From Candidatus Eiseniibacteriota bacterium (lineage in GTDB: Bacteria; Eisenbacteria; RBG-16-71-46; SZUA-252), in the NCBI GenBank assembly GCA_005893165.1, contig VBOR01000053.1, forward strand, positions 1-43,637: a stretch of DNA of 43,637 nt. The letters are read 5' to 3'. The notes beneath the pieces are model-generated. The model saw only the letters and a list, made by a program, of their open reading frames with translations, searched no databases and had not been told where the DNA came from. The number at the start of each line of letters is the position of its first letter. Position 1 is the stretch's first letter. Shown in pieces: positions 12,930-32,639 of the stretch. A program made the translations under genes and the position numbers.

Positions 12930-15900
12930 CTAGGGTCGGATCAGCCGCGGCTGCGCCGGATCCTGCGGCACCACAAGTTGTCCTGGTCCTTCCTTCTGGA
13001 TGGATCTCAGGATCGACGTCGAGGCGCGCGCCTCGTTGTTGCCGGGTTGCGAATCGTTCGCGGCCGAGGCGGTCGCGATCGCCGTGAGCGACGTTCCGGA
13101 AGGCGTCGTGACCTGCCACATGAGGGACATCATTCCCCCGGGCGCGATATTCACCGGAAATTCGCGGCGTGTGGATTCGGAACCGTCGACCTGAAGCACG
13201 CCCATCACCGTGCCGCTGCCCGCCGCCGTCCCGATGTTCCGGACGACGATGGTGATCGTCAGGGGGTCGTTCGGCTTCGGCATGCCGGGCGCGTAGGTGA
13301 TGTCGGAGGGCAGGATCTGCAGATCCGGGCGATCGAGCTTCGCCATCATGAGGCCGCCGGCTCTCACCTCGGAAGTCGCGATGACCCCCGGATCGGATTT
13401 CAGCTCCGGGTTCGCGACGAGCATCGGCTGCTGGAGAAAGGGCTTCACGAGCATCACGCCCAGAGCCGTGGTGATCTCGCGCGTGGCCTCGACGGTCTGT
13501 CCCGAGACCGTGGCGCGGCAGAGAAGGACGTGCGAGCCCGCGGCCGGAGTCCAGCCGGGAAAGCCGGTGAAGACGTAGTCCTTCCCGGCCACGATGTCCC
13601 CCCCAGCCTCGCCGATCCTCACCTGGTCGGCGAAGATTTCCACCCGGACTCCCTTCGCATCGGCGCTTCCCATGTTCTGGGCATGGACCGGAGCCGACTT
13701 CGATCGGTTTTTGAGCCGAGCCGCTCCGATCGCCCCACGTGACCACGACGCGGACATCGTGACGCCCCGGCGTGGCCTTCCAGGTCTTGAATCCGCCCGC
13801 GAGCACCGGCTTTGCGACCGGCACGTCGATTTTCGTCTCGCCGAGCTTGTCCCCGCCGATGAAGGCCTCCAGCTTGACCTTGCTCGCGGCCTGCCGCTCC
13901 GAGTTGAAGAGACGGACGGACAGCGAGACCTCGGTCCCCACCGGCGCGGGGTAGGGCGTGAGCACGATGCTGTTCGCCGTGACCCCGAGCAGGGACATGC
14001 TGAGGGCGAACTTGTTCCCCCGCATCAGACCCAGCGATCGTGTCTGGGCCGGTGCTGCGTACGTGGGCGCCATGACGAGGGGCGTGAGCATGCGCGTCCT
14101 CGGCATGGAGCCCGTGGCCAGAGCGGGGCGTCCGGCGTCGATGACTCCCGAGCCTTTCCCGACCAGCACCGACCTGGTTGCCGCACCGCTCGCGACGTCT
14201 CCGGGACGTGCCGCCGCCGCACTCACCGTGATCTTGTCCGTCGCGGTGGATGTCAAGGGGCGGCCGCCGGGACCCTTACCGGCAAGCTCGATGAGGACCG
14301 GGAACGTTCCCGGTCTGGGAGGGGTCCATTGCTCGAAGGTGACCGTGCGGCGCTGCCGCGGGAAGAGGACGCCGAGGCTCTTCGTGGCGACGATCTTGTT
14401 CTCGACCTTCAGCGTGCCTCGCACGTCGCTGAACATGTGGTCGAAGGGATTCGTCACCGTGAAGGCGAGGCTGACCGGTTGGGGGCCGGAAGGCGCCGAG
14501 GCCGCGGTCATGGCCTGGGACGTCGAGGACATGGTTCCCTGTGGACCGGTGCCGCCGCCGCTCGTCGGCGCGCTCGTGCCGCCTGTGCCGCTCGTGCTTC
14601 CCATCGTCGTCTTGCCCGAAGCGGTGCCGCTCATGGCGTGAACTCCGCCTCCGGTTCCCGTCTGGTGCATCATCTGGACGCCGCCGGATGCCACCGTTCC
14701 CGTTCCGACGACCAGGACGGCCGGCATGGATCGAACGGTTTCGATCTTGAGGAAGCCGGGATCCGTCGCCGTCACGAGGCCCCCGTGCATCGACCCGAAC
14801 GCGCCGCCTTTGATATGGCCCCCCGCGCCTCCAACTCCTCCGCTTCCGCCGCCGCCCCCTCCTCCCGCCGGGGCGGGAGACACCGGCACGTCGCCGAAAT
14901 CCATTCGGTTGTTCGCCTGGGTCCCCTCGTTGTCGCAGTAGGCCTCGAGGGTGACGTTGTGGTGATTGCCCGGATGCGAAGGGGTCCAGGGCACCGTGAT
15001 CGTGGTGCTGCCTTTCGTTCCGATCACCGTCGGCGTGGAGTTCGCAAGATCGGTGGAAGCGTTCTCGCGCAGATAGAGCACGACGTTCGTGGCGGACGCG
15101 GTGCCGCTGTTCACCACCGTGAACAGAAGGGGCGTCGTGACTCCGCTCACGATCTCCTCGACGGCCTCGACGCCCGAGATGCTGAGGTCCGCCATGTTGG
15201 CCGGCGTGGGAGGCGGAGGAACGCCCCCGCCGCCGCCACCACCGCCGCCTCCCTCGAAACCTCCGGACTCGCCGCCTCCTCCTCCGCTCACGAAGTTCTC
15301 CGCGGTCTTGGCGATCCACGCATCGAGCATTCCGAATAGTGCTGCCTGGAGCTTCTCCTTCACGGCTCCCGCCACACCCTTCGCGCCTCCGGGCTGCGAG
15401 GCGAGCTCGGTCGCGATCTGACCGGCCCCGGTCGATGCCGCGGCGGCCGCGAGGGATGTCTTGAGGTGCGAAAGGAGCTGGTAGGAGAGCTTCGGCTCGC
15501 CCGGCTTCGAGAGGTCCTTGCCGCCTCCGAGAAGCCCGAAGTGACTCTCCACGCGCCCGTACCACCAGCGCATCTCCTTCGAGTCCGCGCCCGGCGTGTT
15601 CCACATCCGCGTGATTTCGGCCGCGCGATCCGACCAATTCCATTGGGGAAGCTCGGAGACGGTCTTGGAGGAAGGCGGCTCGGGCTCCCCCTTGGAGCGG
15701 TCCATGGCCGTTCGCCACAGGATTCCGGCGAAGGAGGACTCGACTCCCTGATTGGCGCGGAGGTCGCTCAGGTTGTTGAACGCCTGCGTGTAGTACTGCG
15801 ACTGATCCTTTTCCGTCCCCGCTGCCGTGGAATAGCCGGTCCCGATGAGAAGGAGCTTTCCGGGGAAATCGCCCTGGAGCTTCGCGACGAGGTCGGGGAA

Positions 15901-16752
15901 GCGGTCCACGGCGTTCGCGCTCACACTCCCGGGAAACCACTCCAGCGACACGACGTCGATGGCGGCGGAGCCCAGGATGGTGCTCAGGTAGCTCCGCAGG
16001 GATTCATACGCCTGCTGGTAGCTCTCATCGGTGAGCGGAACGTTGACGATGGCGCCGAAGCGGATCAGCTCGTAGTCGAAGGAGGCGCTCGCGAGGACCG
16101 GGGTCGCCTGAAGGGACGTGCCCGCGAGGGCCGTCTGCTCCGATGCGTGGAGCTTCTCGACGGTCGCTCGGAGGATCTCCGCCGCCTTCGCCGCTTCCAG
16201 GGGACCGTGGCTGGCCGGATGATTCATCGGCCGCTCCAGCTGGTAGAGCATGATCTGCGAGTAGGACTGAGGATCGCCGGCCTTGCCCACGAGCTCGATC
16301 GTCTTCGCGGCAAAGGCCCCGACCCGGTCGGGATAGTCCCCCGGCAGCGCTTCGCCCGCCGGGGCGCCGACCAGGAGCGGCGCCAAACGGACGTCGTTCG
16401 CTTTGGCCCACACGCAGAGCTTCGCGAGGCGCCCGGCGCCCTGGTCGCCCAGCTCCTTCACCTCGACCGGAAACTGGATGACGTTGAAGCCCGCGGATTT
16501 CAGATATTTGTCCCAGAGCTTCTGGACCGAGGCGACGGCGTCCTCGGGGCTCGCGCCGGGGGGCAGGGCATCCATGTCGAGCCCGACTCCGAAGATGGGG
16601 AGGAGTCCCGTCGCGCTGACGGGCGAGGACGAGGCCGCGGAAGACGCGGGTGCCGCGGGCGCAGCATCTCCCTCTGCTCGCGCCCATCCGGGCGCGGCCA
16701 TGAGAATCAGCACAAGTGCGGCCAGTGCGGGCGACCTCGTTCCCACGTTCAT
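12930..16752 (-). CDS. Large exported protein: barrel-like N-domain, Gly-rich linkers, CARDB-like domains (frameshifted)
   Basis: Signal peptide at 1-26 (ALAALVLILMAAPGWARAE). Residues about 50-400 look like a glycoside-hydrolase-type TIM barrel (AGFNVIQFPVEV, IDVVSLEWFPGS, KLLLIGTGYSTAAGTE, FAGILWRTAMD), without a catalytic pair I can fix. A tract of about ten glycines and PPPP follows, then about five CARDB/Ig-like domains (ADLSISGVE...FTVVNSGTASATNVVLYL; RPDLQILPSD...IVVRNIGTAAGSG) separated by Gly/Thr/Ser-rich linkers. The frame opened at ATG 16752 (GGAGGG upstream) loses domain similarity at about 13,710; the CARDB pattern resumes in another frame and ends at 12930. Removing one A from an A5 run gives one 1273-residue protein. 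Likely a surface adhesin or matrix protein. Confidence 0.75.
13708..13712 (-). other. Frameshift site in the 1273-aa CARDB gene
   Basis: On the minus strand the gene reads ...GSAQ then a run of five A. Deleting one A joins TWGDRSGSAQ to NRSKSAPVHAQNMGSADAKG, restoring the CARDB pattern. The upstream frame beyond this point turns into an Arg/His/Gly-rich sequence typical of a shifted frame. Confidence 0.8.
15199..15288 (-). repeat. Polyglycine/proline-coding GC tract
   Basis: A GC-rich, near-homopolymeric codon tract (GGx repeats) encodes the GGGG...ESGGFEGGGG...PPPP linker between the barrel-like and CARDB regions. Such tracts vary easily in length. Confidence 0.8.
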
Positions 16753-16786: not shown

Positions 16787-18121
16787 TCACGGGCCTTGGT
16801 CCGGCACGGATTGGGTCACCCCAAGCGCGATAGCGATGTCCGTCAAATGCGAGAATTGCGGCTTGTGGGTCGTATCGAGGACCGCGGCCGACCGTACCGC
16901 GTCTTTGTAGCCGTCCCAGTAAAGATCCACCCAGGCCTGGGGCAGCTTGTTTTCGAAGATCGAGGCATAGTCCGCCTTGCTCCGCGACTGATAGCCGGTG
17001 AAGTAGTCGGCGTACGCGAGCGGGATCAGGTAGGGTTTGGGCCCGGCCTCGTTCACGTTCTGGACGCTGGCGAGTGGCCGGCCCTCGAGGCCCATCGTGC
17101 ACAGGGTCTCATACAGCTTCGCGATCGGGCTTGCCGGCGTGCGGAAGAGGGCGGCGTCGTTCGTCTTGATGGCCCGGAGGAACTTGCCCAGGCCCATATG
17201 CCAGGCGTACTCCGAGAACGTGAGCGAGATGATGTACTCGTTGTGCACGATGAATTGCGGGGGGATCGACCGAATCTGGAACTCGGCATACCCGGCCAAC
17301 ATGGGTGGGGTACTGGTGACTTCGTGGGCGCCCGCTACCCTCAACTGGTCGTACAGCCAGATGTCCTGCGACGGAAACTCGAACGCGCTCGCGCAGGGGT
17401 GGTCGTTCAGATAGAAGCTGCGCGGCGCGAGCGCCTTCTCGACAAGGACCACGTCGTTGTCGGCGAACCACTTGAACATCTTGCGGCGCATTTCCGAATC
17501 CACGGTGAGGGCCATCGTGTTCGCGATCCCCTCCTGATAGGTCGCGCGAAGATTGGGAACCGCTTCGACCGTATAGTGCTTTCCGTCCGCGCCGTAGTTG
17601 TACCATCGGCTGCTGAGCCAGAATCGGACATCCTGACGGTCGGAGCGATCCTGGGTGTGCACCAGCTCGTGGACGAACGTCCTGCCGTGTCCGTCGTCGC
17701 ACGCGTCCCAGCGGGTGAAGGCGCCCGCCGAGAGCGGCGCATCGACGTCGTTCACGAGCGTGAGCATCACGGGCTTGTCGAGCACCTTGAGGATCCAGGC
17801 TGCAAGGGACTGTAGGGACTCGTCCCCCCCCTGGCTCGGAGGCTTCACCAGTGCGCGGACCAAGCGCTGAAGACCGGGCACCTTGGGGCTGGTCCAGAAG
17901 AGACCGCTTTCCGTTCCTCTCGCGATCGCGCCGTTGTCCAAAATCAGCGGGGGCACGGTCGTCTGGTTCGGCGTATCGACGTAGTAGAAGACCAGCTTGC
18001 CCAGCAGATACGTGCGGTCGGCGTCATCCGCCGACGCCGGCCGCGCCGCTCCGAAGCAGGCGGCGGTGAACAGGGAAACCAGCAGCAGCTGTCGGAAGCA
18101 AAGGGGAACCAATCGATTCAT
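16787..18121 (-). CDS. Exported HExxH metallopeptidase-like protein (gluzincin pattern)
   Basis: A 444-residue protein with a Sec signal (LLLVSLFTAACFGAARPASA, about 12-31). The zinc-binding motif FVHELVHTQD puts HELVH at 151-155, and YQEGIANTMA at about 196-204 provides an EGxA glutamate as the likely third ligand, the order found in clan MA gluzincins. Both histidines and the catalytic glutamate are present, so it is probably active. No family is named with confidence. The start is ATG 18121 with GAGGAG seven bases upstream. It lies between the four-paralogue block (95-base gap) and the CARDB gene (34-base gap), suggesting that it processes or modifies co-exported proteins of the operon. 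Confidence 0.78.
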   Translation of the reverse strand: MNRLVPLCFRQLLLVSLFTAACFGAARPASADDADRTYLLGKLVFYYVDTPNQTTVPPLILDNGAIARGTESGLFWTSPKVPGLQRLVRALVKPPSQGGDESLQSLAAWILKVLDKPVMLTLVNDVDAPLSAGAFTRWDACDDGHGRTFVHELVHTQDRSDRQDVRFWLSSRWYNYGADGKHYTVEAVPNLRATYQEGIANTMALTVDSEMRRKMFKWFADNDVVLVEKALAPRSFYLNDHPCASAFEFPSQDIWLYDQLRVAGAHEVTSTPPMLAGYAEFQIRSIPPQFIVHNEYIISLTFSEYAWHMGLGKFLRAIKTNDAALFRTPASPIAKLYETLCTMGLEGRPLASVQNVNEAGPKPYLIPLAYADYFTGYQSRSKADYASIFENKLPQAWVDLYWDGYKDAVRSAAVLDTTHKPQFSHLTDIAIALGVTQSVPDQGP

Positions 18122-18216: not shown

Positions 18217-20247
18217 TCACCCGGCGGATGGAAGTTCGTCCACGAAGAGAATTGCGTCGCTCGCGCTCTTTCTGCCCGAAGAAACGACCCGGTTGCCCTT
18301 CAGCCGCCAATCGATCTGGTAGTCATAGTTCACGACGTCCGCGGGCAGGATGAAATCGATCTTGTCGGAGAGCTGCCCCTTGGTCGCGTTCAGCGTCACC
18401 GTCTTCACCTGCTCCGTGTCGCCCAGCTTGTAGAAGAGCTTCACGGTGATGGAGCGGACCCCGGCCGCGGTGATGACGTCGGGATCGGCCTGAAGATCCA
18501 CGCTGTGCTTCTGGAAGGGAGGCGCCAGGTTGATCGCGCCCGCGTTGGCCTTCTTCCATGGCTGCACGACCTCCTTCCCGCCGAAGAAGCTCCAGGTGGT
18601 CTGGTACTCGTAGTTCATCCACTGGCGGCGGTCGGAATCGTTCTTCCAGCCGTAGAGCAGCTTGAAGTTGTTGCCTTCCTTGTTGAAGTTGACGCGGTCG
18701 ATGCGCACCTCGTCCTGCGTCTCGTCGCCGCCCTGATGGTGCTTGCGCATCTGAACGGTGGCGAAGTTCACGTAGTCGCCGAAATCCTTCGCGTTCATTC
18801 CGTCCACGAAGACCACCAGCTCGCGCTGCTTGTAGAGGGGATCGTCCAGGTTCACCTGGCGGAAGTTGTCCCCCTCTTTCATGAGACTCCGCATGTCGCC
18901 GATGTTCTCGTCGAAGCGAAGCGTCAGGTTATCGGTCGTGTACTTGTTGAGGTCGATCTTGAAGATTCCGCGCTGGTGCACCCTCTTCATCTCGAAGGAG
19001 GCCAGCACGGCGAAGCTGGGTGCCGATTCCTCTTTGCGCTCGGCGACAGGTCCGCCGGACCCGGGAGCGTCCGTAGGACGGGCTTCATCGGCATAGGTGG
19101 GACTCAAGGAAGGTGTGCGTGGCCGATATCCGCGGGGCCGGTCGTCCGCGGCGTCGGTGGCGGTTCCCGCCGCGGCCTTTGCGCTCCCGCCGGTGGCCGA
19201 TGCGGGAGCCGGGGTGGTTGCCTCGGCAGCCGCCCGGTTCTCCTCCCGGATGGTCTTGTTCTCAGCTCGGATCTTTTCGTTCTGCTGCTCCGTCGCGGTC
19301 CGGTTTTCCTTCAGCATCGCGGTGGCGCGATCCAGCATGCTGGGCTGGCCCCCCGTTCCCGTGAGGCTCGAGAGGTCCGGCGTGCCGGTGCCCCCCATGG
19401 GGGAGAACATGATTTCCGCGATTTTGTTGTAGGCGGTCGTGATCAGGGCGTCCAGCTTCTCGTCCTCACCGACCTGAGTGAGCTTGATCGCGCCTTCGCG
19501 CTTCAGGTCGTCGAACGCCCCCTTGATCTCCGCGGCCAGGAATTGGGTCGCAATGCCCACCGAGAACGCCTTGTGCTCGTAGATCTGGTCGAAGTTCGCC
19601 TCGATGAGCGCGCGGTGGGGCGACCGGTAGCCGCTCATGTCCATCTCGAAGCTGAAGCTGATGTCCGGCGTCGGCGTCTGGAACGATTCCCAGAGGATCT
19701 TCGCGCCCAGTTTCGTGACCTGGATCGACACCGCCGCCTTGTCCCCATCGAGGAGGGGCGCGTTCCCCAGGCCCACGACCTGCTTCGTCATGTTTCCGTT
19801 TGTATCCTTGAACGAGGAGACCAGCCCGAACTTGCCCGACTTGTAGACGACGGGGCCCACCAGCTTGGCCCCCGGCGCGACGCGAACGAGTGCCCGCTGC
19901 GCCGCCGCGATCTGCTCCTTGGTGACGCTCAGGGCGACGACCGCGTGCACGATGCCGCCCCCTTCGCCTTCCCGCGCCTCCGCCTGGTCCGCGCCGGAGC
20001 GCACGTTCTCCACGTAGCGAAGGAAGGAAAACTGGGGCTTGCCATTTTCGTCCATCGAAAGATGAGGCTTGTCGTTTACGTAGTAATAGACGAGGGGATC
20101 GTTCAGGTCGGGAAAGCAGACCAGCTCGCCCGCCCGCACCGGCTTGTCGAGGAGGATCTGCTGGGCGGACGCCGGCGCCACCCAGGCGAGGGCGACCGCG
20201 ATCGCGAGAAGGACGGTCCCCAGCGTGATCTTGTCGATGGCCCTCAT
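18217..20247 (-). CDS. Exported paralogue D of the four-member surface family (676 aa)
   Basis: Signal peptide at 1-29, then AQQILLDKPVRAGELVCFP, almost the same opening as paralogue B. Shared landmarks: YYYVNDKPHLSMDENGKPQF (about 54-73), GLGNAPLLDGDK (159-170), TPTPDISFSFEMDMSG (191-206), VNLDDPLYKQRELVVFVDG (465-483) and YEYQTTWSFFGG (547-557). Unique to D is a charged heptad-like helix with repeated EN/REEN (about 305-342), then an Ala/Pro/Thr-rich disordered stretch to about 415, so this member is probably a coiled-coil oligomer. It ends in FVDELP, as does B. The start ATG overlaps the stop of paralogue C (ATGA). No known family recognised. Confidence 0.8.
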   Translation of the reverse strand: MRAIDKITLGTVLLAIAVALAWVAPASAQQILLDKPVRAGELVCFPDLNDPLVYYYVNDKPHLSMDENGKPQFSFLRYVENVRSGADQAEAREGEGGGIVHAVVALSVTKEQIAAAQRALVRVAPGAKLVGPVVYKSGKFGLVSSFKDTNGNMTKQVVGLGNAPLLDGDKAAVSIQVTKLGAKILWESFQTPTPDISFSFEMDMSGYRSPHRALIEANFDQIYEHKAFSVGIATQFLAAEIKGAFDDLKREGAIKLTQVGEDEKLDALITTAYNKIAEIMFSPMGGTGTPDLSSLTGTGGQPSMLDRATAMLKENRTATEQQNEKIRAENKTIREENRAAAEATTPAPASATGGSAKAAAGTATDAADDRPRGYRPRTPSLSPTYADEARPTDAPGSGGPVAERKEESAPSFAVLASFEMKRVHQRGIFKIDLNKYTTDNLTLRFDENIGDMRSLMKEGDNFRQVNLDDPLYKQRELVVFVDGMNAKDFGDYVNFATVQMRKHHQGGDETQDEVRIDRVNFNKEGNNFKLLYGWKNDSDRRQWMNYEYQTTWSFFGGKEVVQPWKKANAGAINLAPPFQKHSVDLQADPDVITAAGVRSITVKLFYKLGDTEQVKTVTLNATKGQLSDKIDFILPADVVNYDYQIDWRLKGNRVVSSGRKSASDAILFVDELPSAG

Positions 20248-22232
20248 TGAGGTTTCCCTCCGAGGAGCTCGGCGAATTTATTGAGCACCTTATCCTTCGC
20301 GCTCGTGGCGGCGTCCAAGGCGGCGGTCTTCGCCACCGCTTTCAGCTCCGGCTGATCGAGCATGTCCTTCGGGATCGCCGCGTAGATGTAGTCGTCCCCG
20401 ACCTTGGCGCTCCACGGCGTCGCCATCTTCCCGTCCGTCTTGTGATCCACGACCAGGCGGTAGGCGTAGCCCTTCGCATCCCGGTCCATGAAGATCTTCT
20501 TGGAGATCAGGGGCTCGTTCTTGGCGGGGGAGATGCTGAAGTTCTCCTCCATCTCGGTCCCGAACTTGGGATAGTGGACCTGCACCGTGATCCGGGTGAT
20601 GTTGCTCGCCTTCATGGCGTCGAGGTCTCCCTCGACCTCCACGGTCCGCGGCGCGATCGGAGCCGCCAGCGTCACGCCCTCCCAGCTTCCTTTCTGCCAG
20701 GGTGGATTCGGCGGCCAGACGTTCCCGCCGCGGAAGCTCCACTGCGCCTGGTACTCGTAGACGTCGGGATCCTTGTCATCGCCGCGCGCGTAGGTGACCG
20801 CGGCGTTGATCCCCCGATCTTTGAGATATTTCGCGTCGATCGTGACGTGATCTTCGAACGGATTCCCCGCGCTCCGGGCCTTCCGCACATTCACGGTCAC
20901 GTAGTTCGCCTCTTGCTCGAACATGTCCTTCGCGTCCAGATCCAGGATGAAGTTGATGTCCCGGTGCTGGAAGAATGGATCGTTCAGGTTGACCGCGGCG
21001 ACGCACTTGGGGTTGTCGCGCACGCCGTCGTACCAGGACGCCAGATTGCCCACGAGCTGGCAGCTGCGCTTGACGGCCATGCGGTAGTTCAGATTGATCA
21101 CCTTCGACTTTTGGGCAAACGCCTGCTTGAACGACTGCTTCTTGTAGACGTAATGCTCCCCATACTGAATGTTGGGATTGTCCTTCTTCTCCTGCTCCGT
21201 CGGCTGTGTCGCATTGGACGGAGGAGCGGGCTCGGTCATGGCGTTCAGGAAGTACTGGAAAAAGGCTTCCCGCACCTTGGCCACGCGCTCGTCGCTCACC
21301 AGCTCGTCGAAATGGATATCGATGACCTGGGCTTCCCTGAGGAAGTCGTACTGCTTGCGCATCTCGTCGTAGGAATAGGAGTACTCGGGGCTGTAGCTGT
21401 CCCAGGAGAAGACCCAGAATCCTCCGCCGGAGTGGCTGGTGCCGGTCTGCGTGCGCTTGTATTCGGCGCCCAGTGAGTCGGAGTGGGTCTCGAGCTTTTG
21501 CCAGTCGAACGTGATGGTGCCGCGCGCGGCGGGCGTCAGCGTCGTGAAGCCGAAGTTGAGCGCGATCGAGACATCGCTGATGGAGCGGGCCTTCTCGAAG
21601 GTCGAGGACAGGAGCTGAGCTCCTTCGGCGCTCAGGCGCGAGGCGGCGGCGCACTTGCCGCCGGGGATGAGCGGCGCCTTCCCGGAGGTCAGGAGCTTGC
21701 CCGCCATCTTGTCGTCGGAGAGCGTGGCCGAGATGATCTGGAACGACCCTCCGTCGCTGCCCTCCGCTTCGAGGGGAACGGCGCCCATCACGATCCCCTT
21801 CGGGTGTTCTTCCTTGATCTTTTCCTTCAACTCCTTTTCCTGGTCCGGCGTGAGCCCCCACTGCATGAGGAAATGCATGAGCCCGCCGTTCACACCCCCC
21901 TGCTCGGCGCGTTTCTCCGTCGTAAACTTGAGAAACAGGAATTCGGGCGTGCCGTCCGGCCGCTGGGAGAGATGAAGATTCGCCGGCAAGTAGTAGTAGT
22001 TCTCGGTCCTCGTTCCCGGAGCGGGTCCCGCCTGGGGATAAAGCGTCACGGTCGTGTTGTCCTTGAGCACGATGTCGATCTTGTGCTCGTCATCGAGAAC
22101 CACGGCCCCCGCGGGGGAGGCGACGAGGGCGCACACGGCCCACAGGCAGAGCGCACATGCCTTGAGAGAGAGAAGCCGGTGCGTCGGGCGCAAGCCCGGG
22201 ACGCGCCTGGAATGGACTGAAGCGTTCGTCAT
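20244..22232 (-). CDS. Exported paralogue C of the four-member surface family (662 aa)
   Basis: Signal peptide with a long basic n-region (LLSLKACALCLWAVCALVASPAGA, about 20-43). Shared landmarks: YYYLPANLHLSQRPDGTPEFLFLKF, GGVNGGLMHFLMQW (the A-type version), SGKAPLIPGGK, ISDVSIALNFGF, VNLNDPFFQHRDINFILD, NYVTVNVRKA and YEYQAQWSFRGG. It differs from the others by a Ser/Tyr-rich insert around SWDSYSPEYSYSYDEM. It pairs best with paralogue A. The start overlaps B's stop and the end overlaps D's start, both as ATGA, so translation is coupled. The role is unknown; probably cell-surface or periplasmic. Confidence 0.8.
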   Translation of the reverse strand: MTNASVHSRRVPGLRPTHRLLSLKACALCLWAVCALVASPAGAVVLDDEHKIDIVLKDNTTVTLYPQAGPAPGTRTENYYYLPANLHLSQRPDGTPEFLFLKFTTEKRAEQGGVNGGLMHFLMQWGLTPDQEKELKEKIKEEHPKGIVMGAVPLEAEGSDGGSFQIISATLSDDKMAGKLLTSGKAPLIPGGKCAAASRLSAEGAQLLSSTFEKARSISDVSIALNFGFTTLTPAARGTITFDWQKLETHSDSLGAEYKRTQTGTSHSGGGFWVFSWDSYSPEYSYSYDEMRKQYDFLREAQVIDIHFDELVSDERVAKVREAFFQYFLNAMTEPAPPSNATQPTEQEKKDNPNIQYGEHYVYKKQSFKQAFAQKSKVINLNYRMAVKRSCQLVGNLASWYDGVRDNPKCVAAVNLNDPFFQHRDINFILDLDAKDMFEQEANYVTVNVRKARSAGNPFEDHVTIDAKYLKDRGINAAVTYARGDDKDPDVYEYQAQWSFRGGNVWPPNPPWQKGSWEGVTLAAPIAPRTVEVEGDLDAMKASNITRITVQVHYPKFGTEMEENFSISPAKNEPLISKKIFMDRDAKGYAYRLVVDHKTDGKMATPWSAKVGDDYIYAAIPKDMLDQPELKAVAKTAALDAATSAKDKVLNKFAELLGGKPQ

Positions 22233-24049
22233 TGGGTTCCTCCTCCGTTGTTCGCGTTCACGGGTAGCTCGTCCACGAAGATGAGTCCGCTCGAATCGCG
22301 GCGTTTGTCGGTCAGCCGCTTGTTGCCCTCCATCTGCCAGGTCACCGCGTATTCGTAATCCGGCTGCCCCAGAGGCAGCGTGATCTGAACCTGCTTCTCC
22401 TCGATCGCTTCACCGGGGCGGACGACCATCTGCGGCCGGCGCCGCTCGCCGAAGAAGGGGTAATCCAGCTGCACGATCACGGCGCGCACGCCCTTCGACT
22501 TGAGCGCTCCCTGATCGCCCACGAGCTGCACCGTGCGGTGCTCGTACGGAGCGAAGAGGTCGATCATGGGCGCGCTGGTCTTCTTCCAGTCGCTCTCGAA
22601 CGCCCCGCCCCCCTTGAAGCTCCACCGCGTCCGGTAGGCGTAGTCCAGCCAGGCCATGCGGTCCTCATCCCCGTTCCAGCCGTAGATCATCCGGAGATCT
22701 TCCACGCCCTTCTTCACGGAGGCGCGGTCGAGCACGACCTCGCGCAGGGTCTGCTCGCCGTTCTGGTGGTCCTTGCGCAGGGTCACCGTGACCGTGTTCA
22801 CGTAGCTGTCGAAGTCGGGAAGCAGGGCCGCGTCCACGGATACGTGGACCTCGCGCTGCTGGAACGTGGGGTCGCCCAGGTTCACCGCGCGGAAATAGTG
22901 CGGGTCCTTGCCGTATCGCTTGTGGACGTCGCCCATCTGGAACGTCACGAAGCTGTGCCGCTGGACGCTCGAGCGATGATTGAAGGAGAGCTGACTCTTC
23001 CCCTCGCTCCGGATCTCTTTCCTCTGATACCCCACCGAGGCGCCGAAACCGGTTGTCTTCCGCGCGCCCATGGGGCCGTTCGGGTTTCCGATCTTGGAGA
23101 GGGCATCCATCAACCCTCCGCTCTGGTCCGGAGGAATGCGCTCGGGCTCGACCGGGCGGAACATCAGCTCGAGGAGCTTGCTGTACACGGTGTTGAGGAG
23201 CGCTTCCATGGACGCGTCCGATCCGCTCGAGCGGAGGTTGATCGCGTGTTTCTTGAACATCTCGTCGAACGCCAGGTCCACGTCCGCGCCGATGAAGTAG
23301 TACGAGGCTCCCGCCTTGAACGACTGGCTCTGCTTCACCTCGGACCAGTCGATCGTGAGATCGGCGTCGTAGGCTTCGGAGAGCCCCTCGAAGGTCATGT
23401 CGAAGACCAGCGAGACGTCCGGAGTGTTCATCTGGAAGCTCTGCAAGAGAAGGGAAGCGTGCTCCGGGTCCAGGTCGAAGGAGAGCGCGAGCCGGTTTCC
23501 CTCGAGCACCGGTGCGCGTCCGGTCGCGATGACCGCGTGCTCGGTCGTTCCAGCGCCCGCGTCCCCGCTGGTCCCTTCGGCCGTGGCCGTCCCGGCGGAG
23601 GCGTTTTTCAGCACGGAGGAGACGAGCGTGTAGCGTCCGTCCTGGAAGACGATCGGACCGCGGACCACGATCTCGTTCTTCTTGTACCGTCCCCGGAGCG
23701 TCCTCTCCGCGTCGCGGATCATCGACTCCGGTGTGTCGAGGAGCACGAGAAAGGTGAGGATCCCTCCCCCCTTCGCCTCGGTGATCGTCGCGGCGCGCGC
23801 GCTGTCCGCGGTCGCGTTCACCACGTAGCGGACGAAGGAGAACTGTGGCCGGCCCTGATCGTCGGTGGCCAGCCGCGCCGCGGCCGGCAGATAGACGTAC
23901 TGGAGCGAGTCGCGGGCGACGGGGAAACACCAGAGTCCCCCCGCGCGCACGCCGCGGTCCATCAAGACCTGCTGCGCGCTCGAGCCTTCGGGTAAGGCGA
24001 GCGCCGCCGCCGCGACGAGGAGGAACATCGCTGTGACGGACCTCGTCAC
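22229..24049 (-). CDS. Exported paralogue B of the four-member surface family (606 aa)
   Basis: The start is GTG 24049, overlapping A's stop (GTGA); a long open frame further upstream is antisense-like shadow inside gene A. Signal peptide about 3-26 (AMFLLVAAAALALPEGSSAQ), then AQQVLMDRGVRAGGLWCFP, the same opening as D. Landmarks: YVYLPAAARLATDDQGRPQFSFVRY, ATGRAPVLEGN, NTPDVSLVFDMTFEGLSEAYDADL, VNLGDPTFQQREVHVSVD, NTVTVTLRKDHQ and YAYRTRWSFKGG, with C-terminal FVDELP. No catalytic motif is evident; the whole protein looks beta-rich. Family unrecognised. Confidence 0.8.
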   Translation of the reverse strand: MTRSVTAMFLLVAAAALALPEGSSAQQVLMDRGVRAGGLWCFPVARDSLQYVYLPAAARLATDDQGRPQFSFVRYVVNATADSARAATITEAKGGGILTFLVLLDTPESMIRDAERTLRGRYKKNEIVVRGPIVFQDGRYTLVSSVLKNASAGTATAEGTSGDAGAGTTEHAVIATGRAPVLEGNRLALSFDLDPEHASLLLQSFQMNTPDVSLVFDMTFEGLSEAYDADLTIDWSEVKQSQSFKAGASYYFIGADVDLAFDEMFKKHAINLRSSGSDASMEALLNTVYSKLLELMFRPVEPERIPPDQSGGLMDALSKIGNPNGPMGARKTTGFGASVGYQRKEIRSEGKSQLSFNHRSSVQRHSFVTFQMGDVHKRYGKDPHYFRAVNLGDPTFQQREVHVSVDAALLPDFDSYVNTVTVTLRKDHQNGEQTLREVVLDRASVKKGVEDLRMIYGWNGDEDRMAWLDYAYRTRWSFKGGGAFESDWKKTSAPMIDLFAPYEHRTVQLVGDQGALKSKGVRAVIVQLDYPFFGERRRPQMVVRPGEAIEEKQVQITLPLGQPDYEYAVTWQMEGNKRLTDKRRDSSGLIFVDELPVNANNGGGTQ

Positions 24050-25872
24050 GGTGTGACCCCCGGCGCCCCCGGCGTTCCGGCAGCCGGGGAGCCCGTAGCC
24101 TCGGGCGGCGTGAGGAAGAGGTAATCCGAATCCAGGATGGCGAGCTTGCCTTCCTTCGAGCCGTTCTTGGCGTGCCAGGTCACGCGGTACGCGACCTGGG
24201 AATCCTTGTCCAGGATCAGTGCGATCTTGGAGGTCGGCGTGGTGTCCACGGCGCGCAGGGTCACCCTCTTCACGACCCTCGGCTTGCCGGCCAGAATGGT
24301 CGCGAACTCGACCACCGCCGTCGCGATCCCACGTTCCCCGAAGAGAGAGCGGTCTGCTTCGATCTCCACCACGCGCTTGTCGAAGGGCGGGCTCAGAGAG
24401 AGCGCCGCGTCGGAGCCTTTCGTCCACCGGTCCTGCCCCGCGGGCACCGAGATCGTCGGCCCGCCCCGCAGGCTCCAGCGGACCTGGTATTCGTACGCGG
24501 TCCAGTCCTGGCTGGTCATCCCGAGGCGCGGGAAGGCGACGTTCTGGGTCGTCTTTCCCGCCTCGACGTCGGCCCGGTTGAAGGTCACCGCCTTCGTGTA
24601 CGGAGGACGGTCCGGATAGCTCTTCCGGAAATTCACGGTGACGAAATTGAGCGCGTCCTGAAACGAGTCGATGTAGTCGCCGTCCACCTGGAAGTAGACG
24701 GGACGGAACTCGAAGTCGGGGTCGGACAGGTTGACGACGCGGAAGTAGCGCTGGTCCTGACCCATCGCCTGATACAGGCCGCCCAGGTTCCCCGCGGTGT
24801 CCAGCGGCACCTTGATCGTCGATTTCTTGCTGAGACTCAGGACGAACTTGTTCTGACGGATGTCCTTCCGGTTCTTCAGCACGTACTGGTTGTCGGTGAA
24901 GTACTTGGTGTCGTCGGATCCGAGGAACGTGCTCGCAAACCAGCCCCGCTCCTGGCGGCCCTGGATCTGGTTCGCCTCCACCGCCGTTTCCCGCTCCGGA
25001 TCCTTGGCCCACCCGGTCTTGGAGTCGAACATCAGCTCGACCAGCTTGTCGGTCACGAGCTGGAGGACGCCCGCCATGTCGTCGGCCTTGATGCCGAGCC
25101 CCGCCGTGCGGTCGAGCACTTCGATCTTGAGCGTACCGTCCCGCTGGAGATTGTCGACGGCGTTCCGGAGCTGGGTCTTGGTGTAGTCCTGTTGCACGTT
25201 GGTGGTCGAGCTGAAGTGCTGGTACACCGTGGACACGTCGGCGGTGATCTTGGCGTTGTATCCCTCCACGGCCGCCTCGTAGTAGCCGTGAATCGCGACC
25301 GAGACGTCGGACGTGGGGCTGGTGAGGGAATTCCAGAGGAGCGTGGCCCCCTGCTGCCTCAGGAGCGCCGCGACCACGGCCTTCGATCCGGGCATGAGCG
25401 GCGCGCGTCCGGATGTGACGAGGGAACGGGTGAATCCACCTTCCGCCTTGTCCGAGAGAACCGCCGAGACGACCTCGAAGGAGCCCATCCCGTCTTCACC
25501 GTCCTTGATGGACTGCATGAGCGGGACCGGCCCCAGCACATGCGCGCCCGCCACCTTCTCCCGGAGCGCGTTCTCCACCCGCCGGACCACGGGATCCGGC
25601 AGCGTGAACTCGACCAGGGCGTGGAACAGACCGCCGTTCGTCCCGCCCGCCTGGTCGACGTACTTGAGGCACAGGAACTCGAAGGTCGAGTCCGCTTTCA
25701 TCGCGAGCCGTGGAAACTGGGGCAGGTAGTAGTAGGCCGTCGGGTCCTCGCTGTCCTGGAGGAGCTGGACCCCCAGAACCGCACGGGAGCCCTTGTCGTA
25801 GTTGACCAGAGCGGAGGCGGGACGCGAGCCGGCGAAGCTGAACAGGAGGAGGAGAAGGAGCACTCGTTTCAT
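24046..25872 (-). CDS. Exported paralogue A of the four-member surface family (608 aa)
   Basis: Signal peptide at 1-21 (KRVLLLLLLFSFAGSRPASA). Landmarks with positions: YYYLPQFPRLAM (47-58), GGTNGGLFHALVEF (76-89), LGPVP (113-117), SGRAPLMPGSK (154-164), TSDVSVAIHGYYEAAVEGYNA (187-207), VVNLSDPDFEFRPVYFQVDG (379-398), NFVTVNFRK (409-417) and YEYQVRWSLRGG (460-471). These positions set the pattern used to align B, C and D. It is closest to C. The start is ATG 25872 with GAGG about nine bases upstream, 16 bases after the 395-aa gene. It ends with a Pro/Gly/Ala tail. The function is unknown. Confidence 0.8.
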   Translation of the reverse strand: MKRVLLLLLLFSFAGSRPASALVNYDKGSRAVLGVQLLQDSEDPTAYYYLPQFPRLAMKADSTFEFLCLKYVDQAGGTNGGLFHALVEFTLPDPVVRRVENALREKVAGAHVLGPVPLMQSIKDGEDGMGSFEVVSAVLSDKAEGGFTRSLVTSGRAPLMPGSKAVVAALLRQQGATLLWNSLTSPTSDVSVAIHGYYEAAVEGYNAKITADVSTVYQHFSSTTNVQQDYTKTQLRNAVDNLQRDGTLKIEVLDRTAGLGIKADDMAGVLQLVTDKLVELMFDSKTGWAKDPERETAVEANQIQGRQERGWFASTFLGSDDTKYFTDNQYVLKNRKDIRQNKFVLSLSKKSTIKVPLDTAGNLGGLYQAMGQDQRYFRVVNLSDPDFEFRPVYFQVDGDYIDSFQDALNFVTVNFRKSYPDRPPYTKAVTFNRADVEAGKTTQNVAFPRLGMTSQDWTAYEYQVRWSLRGGPTISVPAGQDRWTKGSDAALSLSPPFDKRVVEIEADRSLFGERGIATAVVEFATILAGKPRVVKRVTLRAVDTTPTSKIALILDKDSQVAYRVTWHAKNGSKEGKLAILDSDYLFLTPPEATGSPAAGTPGAPGVTP

Positions 25873-25888: not shown

Positions 25889-27076
25889 CTAAGGGCCAAG
25901 AATGGAACGGACGCCTATGTTCTTGGACGGCGTGACGTTTTTGGACTGCGATGTGACGTCGAGGATCTCGGACCAGCTCTGGCGCTCGCGCCAGACGCTC
26001 TGGTGCTCCATGCCGTCCAGCTTCACCTCGCGGGTGCGGTAGCGGTACGGCCGGTCCAGCCGGACGGCGACGGGGAACCGGATGCCGGCGGAGTAGAGAT
26101 CCGGCTGCTCGCGCAGGAACGCGGTCTCGAGCTTCACGCGCTTTCCGCTCACGCCCTCGGCGTCGATCTCGACGCGCTTCTCCGCCAGGTCGGGGCGAAG
26201 CTCGTTGTTGAAGTCGTAGCAGTAGACGTCCAGGGCGGCGTACCCCGGGGGCGCCTTGTCGTTCAGATCCACGCGCCGCATGAGCTCGGGGAAGCGCTTC
26301 ACGTCGAGACCGATCTCGATCGCCCCCGCGCGGATCACGTGGGTGCGCACGGTGTCCGCCGGAGCGCCGCTCGAATCCGCGCGCGCGCCCGAGAGCGCGC
26401 TCTTCAGTCCCTCGACGATCTCGGGGGAGCCGGTCAATTCGCCGATCCCCGCGACCTGAGCCAGCGCGTCCCCCAGGAAGGCGTAGCCCAGGCTCAGATA
26501 GACCTGGTCCTTCTCGAGCGCCGCGCGGAAGGCCTGCGCGGTCAGGGAATCCAGTCCCACCGTGTAGACGCGCTCCGTCCACGTGCTCCCCGAGCCCTCC
26601 GCCTCACCCGTCGACTCGAAGCGGCCCGGGGGAAGCGAGGTCGTGTCCCCTCCGATCACCACGTACACGAGCGCCGTCGCGATCTTCTTCACCGGATAGG
26701 GGCGCAGGTCGGCGGGCGCGCCGGCACCGCCCAGCTCGCGCGCGACGCGCGTCAGCTCCTCGGCCGGAGGGTGCGGGAGCCGGACCGTGAACGTGACCAG
26801 GCTCTTGTGGAGGATCGTCCCCCGATCGCGACCCACGGCGCTTCCCGTGTAGCGCGTCTCCAGGAAATGAAAGTCGGGTTTCCCATCGGGCGTGGTCACG
26901 ACCGCGATCTCGGCGGGAGCGTAGTAGAAGCGGTTCGGACGGGAATCGTCCGCATAGATCGTGAGCGTTCCCGCCGCGCGCTGGGTCTTCCAGTCGGGCA
27001 CGGCGAGCGCCCGGCCGGGGAGGAGCGGCGAGGCGAGCACCGCCCAGATCAGAAGCGGCGAGAGCGTTCGCTTCAT
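25889..27076 (-). CDS. Exported short relative E of the surface family (395 aa)
   Basis: Signal peptide about 1-24 (LSPLLIWAVLASPLLPGRALA). The N-terminal part, FYYAPAEIAVVTTPDGKPDFHFLETRY then a Gly/Arg turn and LVTFTVRLPHPP, aligns with the YYYLP...DGxPxF module of paralogues A-D. The latter half (RRVDLNDKAPPGYAALDVYCYDFNNELRPDL) only loosely recalls their VNLxDP segment, so E may be a diverged or shortened member. It overlaps the upstream gene's stop (ATGA) and lies 16 bases before A. No enzyme motif is seen. Confidence 0.72.
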   Translation of the reverse strand: MKRTLSPLLIWAVLASPLLPGRALAVPDWKTQRAAGTLTIYADDSRPNRFYYAPAEIAVVTTPDGKPDFHFLETRYTGSAVGRDRGTILHKSLVTFTVRLPHPPAEELTRVARELGGAGAPADLRPYPVKKIATALVYVVIGGDTTSLPPGRFESTGEAEGSGSTWTERVYTVGLDSLTAQAFRAALEKDQVYLSLGYAFLGDALAQVAGIGELTGSPEIVEGLKSALSGARADSSGAPADTVRTHVIRAGAIEIGLDVKRFPELMRRVDLNDKAPPGYAALDVYCYDFNNELRPDLAEKRVEIDAEGVSGKRVKLETAFLREQPDLYSAGIRFPVAVRLDRPYRYRTREVKLDGMEHQSVWRERQSWSEILDVTSQSKNVTPSKNIGVRSILGP

Positions 27077-29180
27077 CGAGGCGCCCCCGGCCCCGGGAGC
27101 GAGCCGAACGCCTCCTCGAGCTGATGCTTTCCGATGGCCAGGCGGAGATCGTCGCTCGGAATCCAGCGAGTCGCCCGGTACGTGGATCCGTCTTTCATGG
27201 TCAGGGTCAGGAGATATTCGAACAGGGGATCGCCGGGAACCGACTCGCCCGGCTGGCGCGCGCCCAGGTACAGCGGGCCCAGCGGGAAATCCTTGCCGTC
27301 GGAGGACATCACCGCGGTCTTGGTCTGCGTGTCGTGAGATTCGCGCACGTGGCATCCACGGCGTATTCCAGCCAGACCCGCTTCGCCTGAGAGTCGATCC
27401 ACCCCGGCACCGAGCCCGCGATCCATTGCGCACGGCCCTGCGGAGGGACCAGCGTGCTCGAGAGGTCCCACGAGTACACGATGGGACGCGAGGACGAATC
27501 GAGCACCAGCGCGTTCAGGTACTTGAGCCGGATCGGGTAGAGCGTCTGGTTGCGCCACGGCTCCGCCCGGTTCCAGCGGAAGGGACCGAACGTAACGAAA
27601 TCCGCGAGCCGGATCCGAAGTGGCACCTCGATCGGCGGCAGCTTCCCCCCGGAAGGAAAGAGGGTAACGCGGCCGCTGATCCCCATGTCCTCGACCAAGG
27701 CCTGTAGTAGACTTTCCTTGGTCACGGGATCCGCGAGCCAGGAGACGTCGATCTGCCCCAAGAAATCCGAGAGCCCGGTGATCGCGATCTTGTCCGCGGG
27801 GATGCTGTAGCGGCGCAGATCGTCCGAGATCGAAACCGAGATGCTGTCGATCGGCATCGCGCGGAGCGCCGTGAAGGGCAACCCATGCGACTTGGCGTAC
27901 GCGGCCATGAGATCACTCGCGATCTGGCGCTCGCGGATTCCGAGCCCCGCGTCGAGCCGGGCGGCGATGGCCACCTCGCCGGCTTGTCCCTCCGACCGTG
28001 TGGCCGAGTAGATCATGCGCATGTCGTAGCCCCCGTCCTCGGTCCAGCGGAGCGAATAGATGTAGGGGAGGAAGTAGAAGAGCCCCGACGAAGGCTGCTG
28101 GTCAGGGTAAAACTTGGGATAGACGCCGAGGACGTGGCTGGCGTCGAGAACGATATCCTCCGAGCGAAGCTCGGCCAAAGGCTCGACGGCAATCGCGGCC
28201 GGGCCCTTGGCTCCTCGGTTCTGGTCCTCCGCCGGCACCCCGAACTGGTTCTGGTTGATCGGGGCGACCGTGGCCGATGGGGGAAGCATCTTCACCACCA
28301 TGTCCGTCCTCATGATGACGGCGGTGTTCGGAGTCATGAGGTTCGCGTTGCGGATCAGGACCCGGTTGTTGATGGAGGAGGACCCGCCGGAGCCCGTCAC
28401 CGCCTGCCCGGAGGAAGGCGCCGCCGCCGCTTGCCCTGGGGGCGGCTGTGCGGTCATCGCCTGCGAGGAGGACGCGGTGCCCCCCGTCGTCGGGGCGGGC
28501 GCCGGCACGACGGAACGTCTCATGATCAGCTGAGGCGACGAGCCGGGCATCGCACCGCCGGGCGCAGACAAGAGTATGAGACGGGGAGGAATCGGTGCGG
28601 AGGGCGTCGGTCCCAGCGATTGCGTCGTGCCGATCGGCTTGGGCGTCACCGTGAGCACCACGTTCTCGGGCCGGATCCCCGTCCGCCAGGGCTTCGAAAG
28701 CTCGTAGGCCTTCACGTAGCTCGGGGTCGTCTTCTCCGGCTTCGCCACGCAAACGCGCACGTATTCGGAGCGCACGTTGGTGTTCTCGGGAGCCGAGGGG
28801 TCGAGCTCCATCGTGCACTCCACCTCGCTGGCCGTGTCCTCGAGCGTGACCGGGGGCGAGCGCTTCACCGGTCGCAGGGTCTTTCGATCGGACCCGGTGA
28901 CCTCGCACCAGAGCCTACCGCCCTGAAATCCCTTGTAGGTCACGGCGAGGACGATTTTCGTCGGCTCGTCCCGCCTGACGACCACCTGCGTGACATCGCC
29001 GGTCAGGGTTCCGCCGAGGAGCGATCCGAGCGCGGACTCCACGCCGAACTTCACGCCGATGGCGGGCTTGAGTGTCTTACCGGTCAGGTCTTCCGCGGCG
29101 GAGGCGTGGATGAGGAGCGGTGACAGCAGAGTGCCGCACGAAAACAAGAGGGAGAGGAACGCGATCCGAATCCGGCGCAT
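27073..29180 (-). CDS. First gene of surface operon: 702-aa exported protein (frameshifted)
   Basis: Signal peptide about 1-29 (IAFLSLLFSCGTLLSPLLIHASAAE). Residues about 30-170 form a beta-rich domain, 190-270 a Pro/Ala/Ser linker including SSSQAMTA, and 330-480 a module FYFLPYIYSLRWTEDGGYDM...GEVAIAARLD that recalls the start of paralogues A-E. Opened at ATG 29180, the frame stops at 27309, but its last 12 codons contain AGA, ACA and CCA, unlike the rest. The neighbouring frame shows normal GC-rich third positions from VRESHDTQTKTAV and ends at 27073, overlapping gene E by ATGA. One missing base near 27,348 explains this. Alternative: a separate 79-residue protein starting at GTG 27312. Confidence 0.7.
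27346..27352 (-). other. Frameshift site in the 702-aa gene
   Basis: The minus strand reads GCCACGTGCGCGAA. Inserting one G (ACGGTGCGC) gives DATVRESHDTQTKTAV and joins the two coding frames. Third-position GC falls sharply in the old frame and rises in the new one at this point. Confidence 0.65.
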
Positions 29181-29884: not shown

Positions 29885-30183
29885 CGTCAGCGTCCCTCTA
29901 ACTGCGGTGGCTCCATGACCACCTCCACGACCGTGCGAAACGCAATTTCTCGGATCCCGGACACACGCCGGCTGTGTCCTCGGGCGGCAAATCCAGATGA
30001 ATGAGCCGGAAAGTCTACACCAAACGCATGCGATCTGCCCTTCGCGGACCTCCGCCCCTCCGGCGCGGGATGGCTCAAGAAATCCCGCGGAAGCGCCGAT
30101 GTCCCATACGGGTAAGCACATTTCCTCGCGCCGCTCACGATCCCCGCAGCCGGAGGGAAGCGCGAGATCATTCCGGAGGTCAC
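29885..30183. other. Divergent intergenic region, EVE / TonB receptor
   Basis: About 300 bases with no supported gene; open frames here lack homology and a ribosome site. It must contain the start signals of both neighbours. I find no clear promoter pair, no Fur-box-like palindrome and no riboswitch fold. The only defined element is the GGAGG of the receptor gene at 30175-30179. Confidence 0.5.
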
Positions 30184-32088
30184 ATGGACGTCGGCCGGTC
30201 AGCCGTTCCCCTCGTAGCGGCGCTGTTCCTCTGCTCGCTTCCGCCCGGCGCCATTGGGGAATCTCTCCCCGAAGGAGTCGAGTCCCGAGGCACGCTGAAG
30301 AAGATGAGCATCGAGGAGCTGTTCAACGTCGAGGTCACCACGGTCTCCACGAAACCGGAGCCGCTCTCCTCGACCCCCGCCGCGGTGAAAGTGGTCACGG
30401 GGGACGACATCCGGCGCATGGGCGCGCTCAGCATCCCCGAGGCGCTGCGCTACATCCCCGGCGTGGAAGTGGCGCGCGTGGACAACCGGCAGTACGCCAT
30501 CACCGCGCGAGGCTTCAACGGGACCGTCGCCAACAAGCTGCTCGTTCTGATCGACGGACGGAGCGTGTACACCCCGCTTTTCTCGGGGGTGTTCTGGGAC
30601 GCGCAGGACGTGTTCCTGGAAGACGTCGAGCAGATCGAGGTGATCCGCGGGCCCGGGGCCACGGTGTGGGGAGCCAACGCCGTGAACGGAGTCATCAACG
30701 TGATCAGCAAGCGCGCCGCGGACACCCAGGGACTCCTGGTGACGGGAGCCGCGGGGAACGTGGAACGAGGGTTCGGCGGCATCCGCTACGGGGGTGCTTT
30801 GGGATCTCGATCCTTCTTCCGCATCTACGGCAAGACCCTCGATCGCGACGCATCGCTGCGGCCCAACGGCCAGAAGGCCGGCGACGATTTCAGGATGACC
30901 CAGGGAGGATTCCGGTTCGACGGGGCGCTCGGAGCTTCCAGCGACCTCACGGTCCAGGGAGACCTCTACGGCGGCTCGGCGGATCAGCCGGCGACGGACG
31001 ACATGAAGACCGGCGGCAGGAACGTGATGACGCGCTGGACCCACCGCCTCGCGGAGCGCTCCGACGTGCACGTCGATGCCTACTACGACCACACCCTGCG
31101 CGAGATGCCCCGGACCTTCCGCGAGACGCTGGATACCTACGACGTGTCCTTGCGCCACCGCTTGCCCTGGGGAGCGCGGCACGATGTGGTGTGGGGGCTG
31201 GGCTACCGCCTGACCCAGGACGTCGTCGGCAACAGCCCGGGGCTCGCGTTCCTGCCCTCGCACGAGGCACACGACCTGTACAGCGGTTTCGTCCAGGACG
31301 AGATCGAGCTCGGGAGCCGCCTCCACTGGACGCTCGGCTCGAAGGTCGAGCGCGTCGACTACACCGGGGTCGAGATCGAGCCAAGCACGCGGCTGGCGTT
31401 CACACCTTCGGCGACGCGGACGCTCTGGGGCGCGGTCTCTCGGGCGGTGCGTGCGCCCTCGCGCCTGGACCGGGATCTCTACGTTCCGAGCACGCCTCCG
31501 TACTTGCTTGCGGGGGGACCGGGTTTTGATTCGGAGGTGCTCCTCGCGTACGAGCTGGGGTACAGGGCCCAGCCCGCTCGGAATCTCAGCGCCGCGATCG
31601 CGACCTTCTACAACTCGTACGACAAGCTTCGCAGCATCCGGGGCGGACCGCCGTTCGTCCTGGCCAATGATCTCCACGGCGAAACGTACGGCGCGGAGGG
31701 GAACGCCACCCTCGAAGCAGCGAAAGGGTGGCGGCTCAGCGGAGGCTACACCTTCCTTCGAATGATTCTCCGATCCGACACCGACACTTCGACCGTCAAG
31801 CAGGCGGGGGACTCGCCGCGCCACCAATGGTTCGCGCGCTCCTCGTTGACGCTGCCGCACGGGGTCGAGGTGGATGCGGGCGTCCGCTACGCCGGCGAGC
31901 TTCGGAACCAGAAGGTGCCCTCGTACCTCGCCACCGACGCGCGGCTGGGCTGGCGGCCCGTCGCACCGCTCGAGATCTCGGCCGCGGGGCAGAACCTCTT
32001 CGATTCCCGGCACCCTGAATTCGGGACGCCGGGCACACGCAAAGAGGTGGCGCGCAGCCTCTACGGAAAGGCGACATGGACCTTCTGA
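30184..32088 (+). CDS. TonB-dependent outer-membrane receptor
   Basis: A 634-residue receptor with signal peptide (about 1-24). The region KKMSIEELFNVEVTTVSTKPEPLSSTPAAVKVVTGDDIRRMGA is the typical lead-in, followed by the plug domain (about 45-170) with VLIDGRSVYTPLFSGVFWD and IEVIRGPGATVWGANAVNGVINVISK. The barrel fills the rest and ends in the aromatic residue expected for outer-membrane insertion (ATWTF). The start is ATG 30184 with GGAGG four bases upstream. This receptor subfamily is commonly encoded with YfiR-like proteins and CHASE8-type kinases, as here; the ligand is unknown. The gene overlaps the next one by 13 bases. Confidence 0.93.
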   Translation: MDVGRSAVPLVAALFLCSLPPGAIGESLPEGVESRGTLKKMSIEELFNVEVTTVSTKPEPLSSTPAAVKVVTGDDIRRMGALSIPEALRYIPGVEVARVDNRQYAITARGFNGTVANKLLVLIDGRSVYTPLFSGVFWDAQDVFLEDVEQIEVIRGPGATVWGANAVNGVINVISKRAADTQGLLVTGAAGNVERGFGGIRYGGALGSRSFFRIYGKTLDRDASLRPNGQKAGDDFRMTQGGFRFDGALGASSDLTVQGDLYGGSADQPATDDMKTGGRNVMTRWTHRLAERSDVHVDAYYDHTLREMPRTFRETLDTYDVSLRHRLPWGARHDVVWGLGYRLTQDVVGNSPGLAFLPSHEAHDLYSGFVQDEIELGSRLHWTLGSKVERVDYTGVEIEPSTRLAFTPSATRTLWGAVSRAVRAPSRLDRDLYVPSTPPYLLAGGPGFDSEVLLAYELGYRAQPARNLSAAIATFYNSYDKLRSIRGGPPFVLANDLHGETYGAEGNATLEAAKGWRLSGGYTFLRMILRSDTDTSTVKQAGDSPRHQWFARSSLTLPHGVEVDAGVRYAGELRNQKVPSYLATDARLGWRPVAPLEISAAGQNLFDSRHPEFGTPGTRKEVARSLYGKATWTF

Positions 32089-32636: not shown

Positions 32637-32639
32637 CCG

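Follow-up and report, generated by a model that had tools for sequence, protein, structure and literature searches.

Among described systems, polymorphic toxin systems (PMC3482391) offer one of the closest comparisons for the operon analyzed here, a run of six consecutive genes, F-E-A-B-C-D, in a 43,637-nucleotide contig of Candidatus Eiseniibacteriota bacterium (GenBank assembly GCA_005893165.1, contig VBOR01000053.1). This stretch, hereafter the window, spans contig C120 in full, and the draft genome that it comes from measures 2.5 Mb. As in those systems, the genes that follow the operon, which we call cargo genes, lie side by side and join an unvarying N-terminal domain to C-terminal hydrolases that differ. 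Unlike polymorphic toxins, however, the cargo is tied to a structural operon of several paralogous genes, carries no trafficking domain of a known class and comes with no recognized immunity gene. With roughly even confidence, we propose that F-E-A-B-C-D encodes an exported, non-enzymatic, hetero-oligomeric assembly that would carry the variable enzymes encoded downstream.

Two other kinds of system invite comparison. The EAD/STAND conflict systems (Kaur et al. 2020, PMC7159879) meet the family at a distant, non-exported branch, which in Paracoccus adjoins EAD1 and STAND-like genes (detailed below). The window branch differs in being predicted to be exported and in having no NTPase, and a keyword search of the same text did not turn up the A-D family. 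Contractile injection systems (type VI secretion systems and extracellular contractile injection systems) are alike in concept, as multi-subunit assemblies with variable enzymatic cargo, and the CHAP lysin that accompanies the distant branch is similar to CHAP domains of phage tail lysozymes. In contrast to these systems, A-D carry predicted N-terminal export signals and have no significant PHROGs match, and Pfam and PHROGs scans of A-F and their neighbors revealed no sheath, tube, spike, baseplate or AAA+ gene.

Paralogy of the operon genes

The preliminary description had placed four tandem paralogues, A-D, at 18217-25872. This span is exact, the genes are consecutive minus-strand open reading frames (ORFs), and their blastp similarity lies far beyond chance. 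The ordered signature proposed for them was recovered as six motifs in the same order in 4/4 proteins, and the consensus is slightly altered in places: STFEF in place of DGxPxF in A, TSDVS/ISDVS in A and C, YVYLP and GRAPVLEGNR in B, and YYYVN and ATVQMRK in D. The strings said to be specific to A and C, and those specific to B and D, were found as claimed. Within the window, A and C (blastp, 6e-45) and B and D (1e-50) are reciprocal best matches; A-B reached 4e-42, and the weaker pairs were B-C (4e-34), A-D (1e-27) and C-D (3e-21).

Scanning genome contigs yielded 43 loci, most with whole operons of relatives. A tree of 141 sequences separated A, C and B+D, and a second tree, built on 48 sequences (12 loci), gave every one of A, B, C and D its own clade across phyla, with 100% support (Shimodaira-Hasegawa-like approximate likelihood ratio test) for the split of A+C vs B+D. 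The pairing of A with C and of B with D therefore holds with homologues included, while A+B, the topology that the preliminary description had named as its refutation, was rejected (approximately unbiased test, P = 0.0029), as was A+D (P = 0.0048). When distant relatives served as the outgroup, the root fell between {B,D} (support 99) and {A,C} (support 95; A and C each 100), although it is less certain than the unrooted split because the outgroup branches are long. Together, these comparisons demonstrate that A-D are paralogues, that their order is conserved and, as originally suggested, that the order A-B-C-D reflects duplication of an ancestral gene pair. The accompanying idea of two subunit types stands insofar as A/C-type and B/D-type proteins are cleanly split, but there are four separately conserved types, and these lie inside a six-gene unit.

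Indeed, gene E matches the A-D profile at 1.8e-7 and is a conserved neighbor in most loci, and an iterated profile groups E with A-D and adds a Bacteroidota protein, X1, as well as the C-terminal half of F. By profile comparison, F-E-A-B-C-D is thus a row of six consecutive genes of one superfamily, beyond the four first described. Among the loci, the gene order was A-B-C-D in 16, A-B-C-D-D in three and A-D-C-D in three, while nine Desulfobacterota-type loci had D-A-C. These orders bear on the possibility that A-D are tandem duplicates working independently, for example as separate binding proteins, without a common assembly. Three-gene forms and solitary copies of D would suit such independence; yet separate binders should expand and shuffle, whereas order and one-of-each content are kept across phyla in most four-gene loci, and we regard this explanation as very improbable.

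The canonical operon is patchy, occurring in 5/47 genomes of the window's phylum and 3/301 Flavobacteriaceae. Across the loci, isolate hosts are the Bacteroidota Flavitalea, Lacihabitans, Aquimarina, Flavivirga and Muriicola; Candidatus Nitrotoga is a further host, and hosts known from metagenome-assembled genomes (MAGs) are labeled Eisenbacteria, Planctomycetes, Armatimonadetes, Gemmatimonadota and Desulfobacterota, and taxon labels on MAG contigs can be wrong. D proteins from Gallionellaceae and Armatimonadetes MAGs are up to 65-71% identical to window D. A second, solitary D, 74% identical to window D, lies elsewhere in the genome on contig C72 (C72:3094-5076; L009:3070-5085) beside an outer-membrane-protein-like gene. 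Bacteroidota loci (L011:7338-8752 and others) have two additional genes between B and C: X1, a relative of ~235 amino acids (aa) consisting of the N-terminal domain only, and X2, which carries an NCSDF motif, looks papain-like and has no Pfam match.

Cargo genes downstream of the operon

In the window, the gene directly after D encodes a predicted exported, HExxH metallopeptidase-like protein with the motif HELVH, homologous to HETxHTQ proteins encoded after D in Chitinophagaceae, Planctomycetes and Gallionellaceae-labeled loci (hhalign, 5e-16). The window protein is without ~50-70 residues that precede HELVH in the relatives G003 and G004. The genes following D in Aquimarina, Flavivirga and Muriicola share its N-terminal domain (hhalign, 6e-10; profile matches in both directions are about 1e-5 or weaker), and the flavobacterial C-termini differ, one being Amidase_2 (9e-15), a peptidoglycan amidase. 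A common N-terminal domain with variable enzymatic C-termini, as in polymorphic toxins, is therefore present. In whole-genome searches of 29 genomes, 17/17 copies of this domain lay directly after the operon. Among Flavobacteriaceae it occurred in 2/301 genomes, both belonging to the three with the canonical operon (hypergeometric, ~7e-5), and within the window's phylum in 3/47, all belonging to the five with the operon (~6e-4). Across these searches, the linkage of the cargo N-terminal domain to the operon is demonstrably exclusive. Other loci have astacin plus Peptidase_C70, or tyrosinase (3e-31), after D. Since hhalign left the Nitrotoga cargo N-termini unlinked to other cargo, we do not claim a universal cargo N-terminal domain.

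This architecture raises the question of antagonism, in which the assembly, much as polymorphic toxins do, would deliver variable hydrolases to other bacteria or to predators. A constant N-terminal domain joined to varying C-termini is what such a system would display; Flavivirga has three consecutive cargo genes, all different, the cargo includes an amidase and papain-like peptidases, and a CHAT peptidase gene lies near the Aquimarina locus. The distant branch, moreover, adjoins CHAP-PG_binding lysins or EAD1-trypsin and STAND-like genes. However, inspection of the called genes after the cargo recognized no immunity gene (small or unfamiliar ones could escape), delivery machinery was not found, the cargo seen most often is a conserved metallopeptidase, and a tyrosinase would be atypical as a toxin. 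On balance, antagonism appears rather unlikely, at perhaps half the weight we give to a cargo-carrying assembly.

The distant branch was seen in several settings. In other Flavobacteriaceae (L087-L089), tandem genes for five or six proteins of 750-900 aa, most of them relatives by profile, follow a CHAP-PG_binding lysin-like gene, and a gene for a two-helix membrane protein comes after them. Similar tandem sets occur on plasmids of Pararhizobium and Paracoccus; the Paracoccus run (L093:5390-30714) comprises EAD1-trypsin, EAD1-ATPase and STAND-like ATPase genes, tandem relatives and PLD, with tyrosinase last. A single relative with predicted export lies near an amidase-like gene in L090/L091. 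Such surroundings hint at involvement in conflict or in attack on the wall, though they do not establish it. A sigma/anti-sigma-like pair lies upstream of the distant operon in L089. The Aquimarina operon (L021:15690-19725), for its part, adjoins genes for an extracytoplasmic function (ECF) sigma factor, a TPR anti-sigma-like protein and the CHAT peptidase.

Predicted fold and gene layout

The claim that A-D form an uncharacterized family held in every database searched: Pfam, NCBIfam, PADLOC and PHROGs returned nothing significant for the family from A-F and their neighbors (CARDB appeared downstream only), with a best E of 0.018 for PADLOC component models against the operon proteins and no PHROGs family below E=0.03. 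A profile of 116 members found no PDB sequence at E<=1, and NCBIfam showed no type IX C-terminal sorting-domain model in A-F and one downstream protein. Literature and keyword searches of open-access papers, a scope that leaves aside subscription papers and preprints, did not find the family described. Within the range of these searches, A-F belong to no described family or system.

An AlphaFold2 model of B was confident (mean predicted local distance difference test score, pLDDT, 86). The model places an alpha/beta domain at the N-terminus, with a helical insert between two strands of 21-23 residues, and two sandwiches at the C-terminus. Foldseek matched the whole model only to fibronectin type III (FnIII)/immunoglobulin (Ig)-type structures with low TM-scores; with just the N-terminal domain as query (pLDDT 83) it gave nothing at E<=0.001 (best E 0.029, TM about 0.1), and against viral models it gave generic matches only. 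Gly, Pro, aromatic and isolated polar positions account for most of the near-invariant residues, which form no obvious catalytic set. The long strands around a helical insert recall the MACPF/CDC pore formers, but membership was rejected, with no PDB match to the family profile and no credible Foldseek match for B or its N-terminal domain. A match of D to the listeriolysin O sequence in PDB (E=0.033) is most likely due to chance, as the family profile finds no PDB sequence. A phage origin gained no support either: searches turned up no relatives of the canonical family in IMG/VR and none of the distant branch in phage records.

Such proteins could instead build a cell-envelope or matrix structure (a surface layer, adhesin or fiber), with the downstream enzymes processing the subunits of that structure or the matrix. 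Predicted export, beta-rich folds with candidate FnIII/Ig-like C-terminal domains and the DUF7452 repeats of Bacteroidota F all accord with a structure of this kind, in which proteases and tyrosinase could cleave or cross-link the matrix; the repeats were seen at L015:17931-20237 (5.7e-67). We nevertheless consider it unlikely, and more so than antagonism, because one N-terminal domain is exclusively tied to several unrelated C-termini, including an amidase, a pattern more in keeping with cargo than with one enzyme that does the processing.

The features of the window are collected in Table 1. Every A-D junction either overlaps by four bases or lies within ~20 bases; stop/start overlaps of four bases occur at B/C, C/D and, if B begins at the alternative start, A/B, and the E/A gap is 16 bases. 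Each of A, B, C and D begins with a signal-peptide-like hydrophobic segment, a crude test finds a hydrophobic N-terminal segment in 139/147 members, and export of the A-F products is predicted from such N-terminal segments.

Table 1. Operon genes and downstream genes in the window
Feature	Coordinates	Strand	Description
A	24046..25872	minus	608 aa, predicted exported; first of four paralogues; ORF
B	22229..24028	minus	599 aa, predicted exported; alternative start GTG at 24049
C	20244..22232	minus	662 aa, predicted exported paralogue; ORF
D	18217..20247	minus	676 aa, predicted exported; low-complexity linker; ORF
E	25889..27076	minus	395 aa; shorter member of the A-D superfamily; profile match
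F	27309..29180	minus	Predicted exported; C-terminal half in the A-D superfamily; iterated profile
Cargo-like protein	16787..18121	minus	Signal peptide, N-terminal domain and HELVH metallopeptidase-like C-terminus
Cargo N-terminal domain (profile A6)	17651..18022	minus	Domain common to cargo genes after D
Large protein with CARDB	12930..16752	minus	Predicted exported; Pfam CARDB 2.9e-9

In the window, the F frame (27073-29180) is broken near 27.34 kb, where the match to F proteins of relatives switches between two frames; F genes are uninterrupted in relatives, and a sequencing error and a real mutation cannot be told apart here. The CARDB protein, whose frame is broken near 13.7 kb with the remainder continuing in another frame, probably belongs to the operon's transcription unit; in L012 a counterpart stands two genes past D, and in L082 one follows the cargo genes. 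Divergent from the operon, the region 30001-36074 reads in translation as a TonB-receptor-like gene with genes for a histidine kinase and a response regulator behind it, and at 36076-38627 two adjacent genes resemble bacterial LigD, one its ligase part and the other its polymerase part.

A candidate exported assembly

The cargo-carrying assembly that we propose builds on the paralogy shown above. All subunits go back to one ancestral protein, and duplication of an ancestral two-gene unit (A/C-type plus B/D-type) gave A-B-C-D, each subunit of which would have an N-terminal domain of unrecognized fold, with a helical insert between two long strands, followed by two Ig/FnIII-like sandwiches. The complex would assemble outside the cytoplasm and would carry, display or aid the delivery of the enzyme whose gene comes immediately after the operon. 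In the window this would be the HExxH metallopeptidase-like protein, attached via the common N-terminal domain, and other lineages may have swapped the enzyme part. That each of A-D forms a single clade fits non-interchangeable subunits. Assembly, docking and any target are what we infer, rather than observe, in this scheme.

Several points weigh against this proposal. A hetero-oligomer of A-D is itself a conjecture. Several genomes, relatives included, have a solitary second D, so the four proteins need not act as one unit. The Desulfobacterota loci are without B and have no such enzyme downstream, and no outer-membrane export gene belonging to the operon was found. The astacin/C70 and tyrosinase proteins showed no common N-terminal domain by profile or hhalign and are tied to the operon by position only, and the distant branch is without clear signal peptides. 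The solitary D, the Desulfobacterota loci lacking cargo or B and the missing outer-membrane export gene in particular weaken the case for an assembly. The fullest version, in which an undescribed extracellular machine would be made entirely of paralogues with a new N-terminal fold, would load exchangeable enzymes by way of a dedicated docking domain, would be spread patchily across many phyla and would have a sister branch in the cytoplasm with ties to conflict genes, is more tentative and falls somewhat short of even confidence.

A six-gene, one-superfamily operon is thus present in bacteria labeled as about ten lineages and is unannotated in Pfam, NCBIfam, PADLOC, PHROGs and PDB, and the order of A-D shows cleanly how duplication turned an ancestral gene pair into a set of four. 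Part of the architecture, the constant domain with variable hydrolases, is already known in style from polymorphic toxin systems. The operon's strict tie in genomes to a docking-type domain borne by variable hydrolases would make a cargo-carrying assembly testable in culturable isolates of Flavitalea, Aquimarina, Flavivirga and Muriicola.

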